Positions 8,051 to 10,675 of a stretch of DNA of 64,000 nt are shown here, in pieces. Origin of the DNA: Nitrospirota bacterium (GTDB lineage Bacteria > Nitrospirota > Nitrospiria > Nitrospirales > Nitrospiraceae); the NCBI GenBank assembly GCA_030684575.1, contig JAUXVD010000014.1, forward strand, positions 1-64,000. Direction: 5' to 3'. Below the pieces are notes generated by a model. It searched no databases and was not told the origin of the DNA. It was given only the letters and a program-made list of their open reading frames with translations. The stretch's first letter is position 1, and each line of letters opens with the position of its first letter. A program made the translations under genes and the position numbers.

Positions 8051-8941
8051 TTAGTTTTTTCTGGAAGTTATGTAGCGCGCGATTTCGCGGAGCGGGTCGG
8101 CTGCAGGGCCGAATGACGACAGCCGTGCGATCGCCCGGTCGACGCACTCGTCGGCCAGTTTTTTGGCGCCGTCCACGCCGTAGAATGTTGGATAGGTCTT
8201 CTTGCCCCGTTCCGCGTCGGTATTCGGGTTCTTGCCGAGTTCCTCACGAGTGCCGGTCACATTGAGCACATCGTCGGCAATCTGAAACGCGAGGCCGATG
8301 TCTTCCGCATAACCGGTCAGATTGGCCAGTTGGGCTTCCGTCGCGCCTGCGGCAATGGCGCCCATGCGTACGGCGGCACGCATCAACATGCCGGTTTTGT
8401 GCTTGTGAATGTTTTGCAATGTTGCGAGGTCGATGTCTTTGTTCTCTGCCTGGATGTCGAAGACCTGGCCGCCAACCATGCCGAGATTGCCTGAGCCGTA
8501 GGCCAGTTCCTGAATCAAGCGGACTTGCCGCACAGGATCGCAGCCCTTCATGAGGTCTGGACGGCTGCAGAGATCGAACGCCATCGTGAGCAACGCATCG
8601 CCTGCCAGGATCGCCATCGCATCGCCATAGACCTTGTGATTCGTCGGCTTTCCGCGACGGAAGTCGTCGTTGTCCATCGCGGGCAGATCGTCGTGGATCA
8701 GCGAATAGGTGTGGATAAACTCCAGCGAGCAGGCCACGGCCATCAATCCGGGTGGGGTGGTTCCGAGTGCTTCGGCCGCTGTAATCGTCAGGATCGGGCG
8801 GATCCGTTTGCCGCCTGCCATGAGGCTGTACCGCATGCTCTCGTGCAATGTGGTCGGTGGCGTCGTGGCAGGAGGGCTCACCTGATCGAGGAATCGATCG
8901 ACGTCGATCCGCTTCTGTTCGAGATAGTCCTTAATGTTCAT
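8051..8941 (-). CDS. ispA: Short-chain polyprenyl (farnesyl/geranylgeranyl) diphosphate synthase
   Basis: This 296-residue enzyme has the first Asp-rich motif DDLPAMDNDD at 84-93 and the second, DDVLN, at 223-227. GGKRIRP near 43-49 is the conserved diphosphate-binding loop. It condenses isopentenyl diphosphate with allylic diphosphates to make FPP or GGPP, the precursors of hopanoids and carotenoids made by neighbouring gene products. The start at 8941 (MNIKDYLEQK) fits the family. The ORF track extension upstream has no support. FPP versus GGPP cannot be settled from the motifs, so ispA is used as the general symbol. Confidence 0.9.
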   Translation of the reverse strand: MNIKDYLEQKRIDVDRFLDQVSPPATTPPTTLHESMRYSLMAGGKRIRPILTITAAEALGTTPPGLMAVACSLEFIHTYSLIHDDLPAMDNDDFRRGKPTNHKVYGDAMAILAGDALLTMAFDLCSRPDLMKGCDPVRQVRLIQELAYGSGNLGMVGGQVFDIQAENKDIDLATLQNIHKHKTGMLMRAAVRMGAIAAGATEAQLANLTGYAEDIGLAFQIADDVLNVTGTREELGKNPNTDAERGKKTYPTFYGVDGAKKLADECVDRAIARLSSFGPAADPLREIARYITSRKN

Positions 8942-9037: not shown

Positions 9038-9217
9038 TGATCTTCTGTGCTCGCGCAACGCGCGGCCTAGGAAGGTCCTCGTTGGACGCGCGCAGTGGAA
9101 GATCAATCAGTTCCCATCCTTGAGAGATAACGAGCGAGCTTGGAGGGAGCATATATTTGGAGGGAGCATATATATTGTTCGATGCGCGCAGTACAGGGCA
9201 GTCTCGGCCACTCCCTT
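9038..9217. repeat. Family A palindromic repeat with 17-bp tandem duplication
   Basis: The segment 9038-9105 is palindromic, with ends TGATCTTC and GAAGATCA around the family motif TGCTCGCG...GACGCGCGCAGT. A second half-copy (GATGCGCGCAGTACAGGGCAG) lies at about 9180-9217. Between them, TTGGAGGGAGCATATAT is repeated exactly twice at 9140-9173. No gene is seen from 8942 to 9414. Confidence 0.7.
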
Positions 9218-9377: not shown

Positions 9378-9407
9378 TTGCCTCTCGCCGTTCGCCTTCG
9401 CTATACT
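9378..9407 (+). promoter_or_regulatory. Possible sigma70 promoter for a leaderless mRNA
   Basis: TTGCCT at 9378-9383 and TATACT at 9402-9407 are separated by 18 bp. The start codon at 9415 lies only 8 bp after the -10 box, about where transcription would start, and no ribosome-binding site precedes it. Computed by eye only. Confidence 0.4.
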
Positions 9408-9414
9408 CCGCGAC

Positions 9415-9708
9415 ATGAGTATCAGAAAAGGTGGCGGAGACTGGGAGCCGATGCTGTTGGGGATTGAACCCCGCAACTGCAAGGTCTGCAAGGAAGGGCT
9501 CTACCGCAACAAGACGTTTTTTTCCGGCGGATGGTCTCGTTGTGCCTTGTGCGATGAGTTTGTTCATTACAGTTGTCTAGCCAGCGGCAAAGTTTCGTTC
9601 CTGAAAGCCCGTCCCCGCGTATGCAAGACTTGCCGCGCCGCCCAAGAGGGCAGCACCCTTCCTACGCCTTCGCCGAAGGAAGAGGCTCCAGCGGCCGTCG
9701 GGTCGTGA
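9415..9708 (+). CDS. Small C4HC3 (PHD-like) zinc-finger protein
   Basis: The 97-residue protein has Cys/His in the order C22-x2-C25, C43-x2-C46, H51, C54, C70-x2-C73. The spacing C-x2-C-x17-C-x2-C-x4-H-x2-C-x15-C-x2-C fits the cross-brace PHD/RING pattern of eukaryotic zinc fingers, which is uncommon in bacteria. A proline-rich tail follows. The start codon overlaps no upstream gene and no ribosome-binding site is seen (see the promoter entry). The next gene begins at its stop codon (GTGA overlap), so the two are likely co-translated. I do not recognise a specific family, and function is unknown. Confidence 0.65.
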   Translation: MSIRKGGGDWEPMLLGIEPRNCKVCKEGLYRNKTFFSGGWSRCALCDEFVHYSCLASGKVSFLKARPRVCKTCRAAQEGSTLPTPSPKEEAPAAVGS

Positions 9709-10040
9709 CCCCCAGCTCACAATCAAGCCCGGTGGAAACCCGTCCGGGCTGGCATGTCTTTTTTTCTGAATCGGTCCGGTTCGTTCTTGCGCCGCTCGTT
9801 CTCCTCTTCAGTGGATTTTTTACCGCGAACTTCATCATCAGTGGCGAATATACCTGGCCGCGGACTAGCCGGACATTGGCGTTGACGCTGACCGTACTGA
9901 TTCTCTCCCGTGAATTTGTCTACAAGGAACAGCTGTCGCATAACGACACGCCGGGGCGTGCGCGGTCGGCACTCCTCTATTCCTGTGTGTTGCCCTATCT
10001 GTTGGGCGTGGTGGTGATGCTCATTCTTTGGGCCCTGTAG
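9705..10040 (+). CDS. Small membrane protein, unknown function
   Basis: The start is GTG 9705, overlapping the upstream stop by GTGA; longer frames from 9573 would overlap the zinc-finger gene deeply. The 111-residue product has three hydrophobic segments (about residues 25-46, 56-70 and 88-111) and a short N-terminal cytoplasmic stretch. I do not recognise the family. Overlap with the zinc-finger gene suggests they act together, perhaps with the finger recruited to the membrane, but that is inference. A family B repeat starts 2 bp after the stop. Confidence 0.6.
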   Translation: MTPSSQSSPVETRPGWHVFFSESVRFVLAPLVLLFSGFFTANFIISGEYTWPRTSRTLALTLTVLILSREFVYKEQLSHNDTPGRARSALLYSCVLPYLLGVVVMLILWAL

Positions 10041-10273: not shown

Positions 10274-10642
10274 ATGGCAGAGATTATTCGTAGCGGGGCC
10301 TTTCTCCAACAATGTTGGTCGGTACATCCGCTCTGTCTGAAGGTCAAGCGTGTTGAGTCGGAGCGCATTGTCGTGCTGACTTGTAGTTCCTGTCGCATGG
10401 TGCATCGGGTGACCACCGATGCGGTGACCAGGCAGGATGCGACAGGAGATTCCACGTCGCCTGTCATCGATCCTGCACAGCCGGACGGAATTCCGGCGCT
10501 CAAGATCTGCATGGGTACCCATGTGGCTGCGTTATCGGTCCGGGAGATGGATGTGTTTGAGGATGCGCTGTGGGTCCGCTGTGCGGAATGTCGAGCGCAG
10601 TACAATTTGACGGTCTCCCAGTTTGAAACCCATCAGAAGTAG
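10274..10642 (+). CDS. Conserved small protein with two CxxC pairs
   Basis: The 122-residue product has two CxxC pairs (CSSC near residue 40 and CAEC near residue 105), which could form one zinc ribbon. It has no signal peptide or membrane segment. The start at ATG 10274 is preferred because GAGCGAGGA lies 8-16 bp upstream; a TTG at 10256 is possible. I do not recognise the family. The gene lies between repeats and small unknown genes. A role as a small DNA- or protein-binding adaptor is possible but not shown. Confidence 0.55.
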   Translation: MAEIIRSGAFLQQCWSVHPLCLKVKRVESERIVVLTCSSCRMVHRVTTDAVTRQDATGDSTSPVIDPAQPDGIPALKICMGTHVAALSVREMDVFEDALWVRCAECRAQYNLTVSQFETHQK

Positions 10643-10675
10643 CCGGCCCGGGTCGAGCCGATCGCTTGCCTGTTG

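Follow-up and report, generated by a model that had tools for sequence, protein, structure and literature searches.

A conserved Nitrospirales C4HC3 zinc-finger protein, often encoded in overlap with a membrane protein gene

The window analysed here is a stretch of 64,000 nucleotides from a Nitrospirota bacterium; its source genome comprises 3.79 Mb in 23 contigs, and the close relatives are mostly labelled Nitrospira. It carries a small gene for a Cys-rich protein, hereafter the finger, and directly behind it a gene for a membrane protein, MEM. The features of the locus are these:

8051 to 8941, reverse strand: divergent neighbour, polyprenyl synthetase gene (PF00348, E 4.1e-60)
9378 to 9383, forward strand: -35-like box TTGCCT, 18 bp ahead of the -10 box
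9402 to 9407, forward strand: -10 box TATACT, 7 nt ahead of the start codon
9415 to 9708, forward strand: C4HC3 zinc-finger protein (ZF), 97 aa, ATG start (reading of the ORF, order-wide homologues, ligand conservation, model)
9478 to 9633, forward strand: finger core, C22 to C73 (sequence and conservation)
9478 to 9480, 9487 to 9489, 9541 to 9543 and 9550 to 9552, forward strand: codons of the ligands C22, C25, C43 and C46 (sequence)
9565 to 9567, 9574 to 9576, 9622 to 9624 and 9631 to 9633, forward strand: codons of the ligands H51, C54, C70 and C73 (sequence)
9697 to 9708, forward strand: junction GTCGGGTC-GTGA, where the Gly-Ser-stop end of the finger overlaps the MEM GTG start by 4 nt (sequence)
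9705 to 10040, forward strand: membrane protein MEM, 111 aa, GTG start at 9705, three predicted helices (ORF, helix prediction, homologues in 51 of 240 phylum genomes)
10274 to 10642, forward strand: small Cys-rich protein, two CxxC pairs (weak match to a zinc ribbon, E 0.00076, below the Pfam cut-off)

The original prediction had described, within 9415-10040, a 97-residue C4HC3 finger protein overlapping a membrane protein by GTGA, and it was exact in coordinates, ligand order and spacing (C22-x2-C25-x17-C43-x2-C46-x4-H51-x2-C54-x15-C70-x2-C73 in the window sequence) as well as in the overlap; the MEM frame opens with GTG at 9705 and ends at 10040. Counting one protein per locus over 172 loci, which gave 127 distinct sequences once L061 had been excluded for ambiguous bases, Cys stands at all seven Cys positions in 127/127 and His at position 51 in 126/127. 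The sole departure (L034, genome G038) replaces H51 with Cys, a ligand-for-ligand swap that leaves an all-Cys finger. Because the ligands are conserved across homologues, a chance origin of the Cys/His pattern is excluded, and the loss of ligands that had been named as a refuting outcome was not seen, bar one degraded extra copy. That copy, left out of the count, lies at 8216-8600 of L120 beside an intact one, is missing C46 and C70, continues into a tract of N and has its own TATACT box; by its appearance it is a duplicate that has decayed or was mis-assembled. Across 17 diverse members (alignment A1) 23 columns are invariant, and the non-ligand residues among them (M1, L15, V24, R31, T34, G38, G39, W40, R42, V50, L55, K64, R66, P67 and R68) form no obvious catalytic set. 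By charge count, core residues 21-76 hold 11 K/R vs 3 D/E.

The finger is a strongly conserved gene found throughout the Nitrospirales and absent elsewhere in the phylum sample. A profile search found it in 76 of 245 phylum genomes, namely 76/77 Nitrospirales and 0/168 others, 149 match-less genomes being placed among the latter on the grounds that the genomes are ordered by relatedness. The single listed Nitrospirales member of this sample without a finger, G264, is given as 100% complete. Of 61 genomes searched separately, among them the source of the window, 53 had the finger, as did 40 of the 41 that were of good quality. Cellular genomes beyond the phylum were covered by the genome_contigs scan alone, where 137 of 141 pattern matches are relatives; the 80 of these that are listed are labelled Nitrospira, Nitrospiraceae, Nitrospirae or Nitrospirota, bar two, one labelled Proteobacteria and one Nitrosospira. 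The name Nitrospirales for the order is taken from these labels. Mobile or viral spread was rejected, since neither plasmids nor PHROGs gave a finger match and none of the 21 pattern matches in viral_contigs is a relative. For the window finger protein no Pfam or NCBIfam model scored above its cut-off, and among the best matches of longer literature listings no title or abstract opening pointed to a paper describing the family.

The promoter is conserved as well. Of 125 distinct upstream regions, 121 have TATACT 6-10 nt ahead of the finger start, and every one of these 121 has a TTG-type -35 element at 17 or 18 bp; the remaining four are L041, which reads TAGACT, and L048-L050, all three of family f4. 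Looked at from the motif, TATACT occurs 173 times on both strands of the 80 genome_contigs loci and the window, and 81 of these occurrences sit 6-10 nt ahead of an ATG with a reading frame of 60 codons or more: 79 precede intact fingers, one the decayed L120 copy and one another ORF, in L106. As a -10 box at this distance from the start codon predicts a leaderless mRNA, the finger mRNA is probably leaderless or nearly so. We rejected the idea that this type of promoter is unique to the finger, as -10-like boxes are equally spaced in other recurrent genes; when the -10 pattern was relaxed and a TTG -35 required, the combination fitted the starts of 76 fingers and 49 further starts, many of the latter belonging to DUF1499. 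The window has a DUF1499 gene of its own (PF07386, 14822-15184, forward strand), and in its relatives the TANNNT boxes mostly lie 8-9 nt before the ATG; judged from this spacing, the DUF1499 gene may likewise be leaderless. Another recurrent gene (L069:2267, L077:2186, L083:1075, L094:1591), which we take to resemble a DNA-3-methyladenine glycosylase gene, carries its -10-like box 7-8 nt ahead of the ATG.

On its divergent side the finger is accompanied by an epimerase and a carotenoid-biosynthesis protein in addition to the polyprenyl synthetase, and at least one of the three is found beside it in many f1-f3 loci among those listed; the synthetase itself recurs in many, though not all, loci of these families. 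Some f1-f3 loci do not have these neighbours, in part owing to a short contig, and neither do the three f4 loci. In the intergenic region that separates the finger from the polyprenyl synthetase, GGAGGGAGCATATAT occurs twice (window 9142-9173). The CxxC protein at 10274-10642, a second Cys-rich protein close to the finger, is the next gene downstream of the finger-MEM pair and comes after the finger in most of the loci that have no MEM; among the loci listed, it and the gene at 10673 are confined to the family of the window. In family f4, L050 has a finger-MEM pair without the TATACT promoter, and its neighbours are presumably 2-oxoacid:ferredoxin oxidoreductase-like and HflK/HflC-like genes.

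MEM is less widely kept than the finger. In the phylum sample 51 of 240 genomes have it, each of them a member of the Nitrospirales that carries the finger as well; within the family it occurs in 79 of 117 genomes, representing 17 of 18 genera. One apparent case of MEM without a finger (G011) was dismissed, as the contig ends 56 nt past MEM. N. moscoviensis (L083) is one of the MEM-bearing species. In the survey of the gene pair that had been proposed as a check, MEM is present in 47 of the 80 genome_contigs loci, at a finger/MEM offset of -4 in 46 of the 47, and absent from 33. In L001-L050, which come from the genome of the window and its relatives, MEM is present in 50/50 loci, 39 of them at offset -4 by the nearest in-frame start; in G236 the two genes are separated by a few hundred nt. 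Many MEM-bearing loci have GTCGGGTCGTGA or GTCGGGTCATGA at the junction, where GTCGGGTC-(A/G)TGA is common. The GTCGGG part of the junction is changed in the MEM-less loci shown, several of which retain TCATGA: L078 and L079 read TCC TGA, and the others have a different tail, some with TCATGA.

All 20 MEM-less Nitrospirales genomes listed have kept the finger. A tree built by a quick method from 85 rows of two neighbouring downstream genes requires the MEM label to change twice, both changes being forced by starred branches. MEM has thus been lost at least two times with the finger retained, and it follows that serving MEM is not the only purpose of the finger. The gene pair that had been proposed is thus widespread and usually overlapping stop to start, but the coupling is not obligatory. 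Loss of MEM does not simply track ammonia oxidation, an explanation we rejected: 14 of 40 AMO-bearing genomes retain MEM and 26 do not, and at least five AMO-less genomes also have no MEM, taking two sets of 117 genomes obtained with the same settings as the same set.

The three helices that had been proposed for MEM reappear in its AlphaFold2 model (residues 16-46, 51-78 and 83-110; mean pLDDT 67.4), and these helices, together with the charge pattern of MEM, suggest that its N-terminus and second loop would be cytosolic. Foldseek with this model returned nothing at E <= 0.001, the window protein has no Pfam or NCBIfam match, and four diverged homologues give only weak matches. A supposed likeness to Ycf20/DUF565 was not supported, no such family being listed for the window protein or for these homologues. 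In 15 columns, fingers with and without MEM differ in the commonest residue or the MEM-less rows have residues not found in the MEM-bearing ones; 10 of these columns fall within residues 9-28, in a comparison of 39 MEM-bearing with 29 MEM-less rows (12 of the 80 were excluded for a shifted or altered WEP motif). Residues 9-28 are a possible MEM contact; 31 of the 33 MEM-less rows form one clade, so that this comparison is confounded by descent.

The fold was approached by prediction. AlphaFold2, given 60 aligned sequences, modelled the finger with moderate confidence (mean pLDDT 61.7, pTM 0.47); the finger blocks average pLDDT 74-81, but residues 31-40 only 52, and the termini are low. The model places strands at residues 40-42 and 49-51 and helices at 52-56 (a short one) and 71-79. 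Foldseek returned nothing at E <= 0.001; the best 50 of 207 matches are mostly domains of the FYVE, PHD, RING and C1 types, a few others being unrelated, and a FYVE domain ranks first (2yw8, E 0.073). Upon re-alignment with VIA-align, which took in Foldseek's own matches, the best 50 are all entries with a PHD finger, named in the title for some, at Z of at most 4.6, where values below 8 may mean merely a common arrangement. Searches of solved structures by sequence were not convincing, the best match being FBXL19 (E 0.12) for a single sequence and 27 residues of a ZBTB43 chain (E 0.018) for a profile. The comparison with PHD, RING and FYVE that had been suggested as a check thus came out mostly on the side of PHD and FYVE, and a two-ribbon fold was not predicted; the predicted, treble-clef-like model favours a cross-brace over two separate zinc ribbons.

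By sequence, the window protein matches PHD_4 (E 0.0016), C1 (E 0.0016) and PHD (E 0.014), all below the Pfam cut-offs; in bits, PHD_4 reaches 18.8 against a curated 30.6 and PHD 15.8 against 24. As a control, the protein was shuffled ten times with only the eight ligands kept. C1_1 then appeared in four shuffles (best 8.3e-5), PHD in three (best 0.00061, one scoring 20.2 bits) and PHD_4 in one (0.0013), and three had no Pfam match at all. As the best shuffles equal or beat the real protein, likeness beyond the spacing of the ligands is not established, and the Pfam resemblance to PHD and C1 may be one of spacing only. The recurrence of C1_1 in 17/17, PHD_4 in 15/17 and PHD in 14/17 homologues at E <= 1 favours a real signal, but homologues are not independent. 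Of the PHD-like module originally proposed, the C4HC3 order, the spacing, the conservation of the ligands and the nearest structures, mostly PHD and FYVE, stand; membership in the PHD family was rejected, as the scores below cut-off are matched by some of the shuffles. By sequence, we would call the finger a new bacterial C4HC3 family and not a PHD member.

We infer that the finger is a Nitrospirales-specific housekeeping protein, a small, basic cytosolic adaptor with two zincs, made from a probably leaderless mRNA and docked by MEM at the membrane where MEM exists, a reading to which we give a probability of about 0.42. The protein would be translated from its conserved, probably leaderless mRNA and would probably fold around two zincs in the cross-brace arrangement of a PHD- or FYVE-like treble clef, acting as a binding adaptor and not as an enzyme. 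Where MEM is present, translation would continue through the 4-nt overlap into a three-helix inner-membrane protein that would serve as a docking site and keep the finger on the cytosolic side of the membrane; in lineages without MEM, the finger would use another target. A bolder version makes it a cross-brace reader of the PHD/FYVE type, evolved or acquired outside the eukaryotes without histones, recognising via MEM, at the inner membrane, a peptide or a lipid in a near-universal core function of these nitrifiers, and re-targeted after MEM was lost; this we regard as doubtful.

Three other explanations have to be weighed against the adaptor reading. The PHD-like order could be only apparent if C22/C25/C43/C46 and H51/C54/C70/C73 formed two sequential zinc modules, LIM-like or as a double zinc ribbon. 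The near-symmetric loops (x17 vs x15) are typical also of such modules, Pfam's double zinc ribbon (DZR) is weakly matched by seven of the 17 members (best E 0.03), and the ligand-preserving shuffles take some force from the PHD and C1 scores; but the linker C46-x4-H51 has the spacing of PHD and C1 and not the x2 of LIM, and both the secondary structure of the AlphaFold2 model and its nearest structures, mostly PHD and FYVE, speak against this arrangement, which we consider unlikely. Alternatively, the basic finger could be a regulator that binds DNA or RNA, with MEM a mere neighbour in the operon. The excess of basic residues in the core, the invariant R31, R42, K64, R66 and R68 and the persistence of the finger where MEM was lost would all suit such a role; it is harder to reconcile with an overlap kept in 46 of 47 MEM-bearing genome_contigs loci, with the confinement of MEM to finger-bearing genomes in the phylum sample and with the lack of any prominent DNA-binding fold, and we judge it unlikely as well.

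Less probable still is a small zinc-dependent assembly factor, or a metal or redox sensor, for a membrane complex specific to the Nitrospirales. An order-restricted core gene with a membrane partner and eight conserved Cys/His residues is what such a factor might look like, but the gene is tied to no one complex, its neighbours differ in family f4, and the loss of MEM does not simply follow ammonia oxidation.

An order-wide core protein with no Pfam or NCBIfam match above cut-off is of interest in bacteria that perform nitrite oxidation and complete ammonia oxidation, all the more as its plan of metal ligands is best known from eukaryotic readers. As a small case that can be tested, the finger lends itself to asking if the C4HC3 cross-brace had an independent origin in bacteria, and the natural losses of MEM, at least two in number, allow one to test what the finger does alone.

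Among known systems, LIM domains and double zinc ribbons place their zinc sites in sequence, and LIM has a linker of two residues where the Nitrospirales finger has four. RING fingers follow the order C3HC4 with His as the fourth ligand, whereas the His of the finger is the fifth, and no Prok-RING family appeared in Pfam at E <= 10 for the window protein. Prokaryotic RING-type binuclear treble clefs would resemble the finger in being bacterial and in having two interleaved zinc sites, and some of them have membrane helices. Such treble clefs are, by its title, the subject of Burroughs et al. 2011, which stands in the reference lists of both PMC4999995 and PMC5906684. The commonest Pfam likeness is to the C1 domain (PF00130), found in all 17 members at E <= 1 (best 5.2e-5), but the window protein stays under the cut-off and one shuffle reached 8.3e-5. 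C1 domains close with C-x7-C, a spacing absent from the finger, which has C54-x15-C70-x2-C73 instead.

FYVE domains carry an RHHCR lipid-binding motif and, toward the C-terminus, an RVC motif. The latter is resembled by the C-terminal R-V-C-x2-C of the finger, whereas RHHCR is absent and GGWxRC stands at its place (alignment A1); one homologue has eight Cys, but the fifth ligand is His in 126 of 127, and no FYVE family appeared in Pfam at E <= 10 for the window protein. In PHD fingers an aromatic residue, usually Trp, lies two residues before the seventh ligand, and in the finger this place is taken by an invariant Arg (position 68; alignments A1 and A2). PF00628 itself had no match above cut-off across 148 phylum genomes, one of which (G181) had a weak match interrupted by a stop, and bacteria are not known to have histone tails for recognition of the PHD type. 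Nevertheless, PHD fingers (PF00628, PF16866) share with the Nitrospirales finger the C4HC3 order and the matching C-x2-C, C-x2-C-x4-H-x2-C and C-x2-C spacing, and they are the nearest solved folds to its model in VIA-align.
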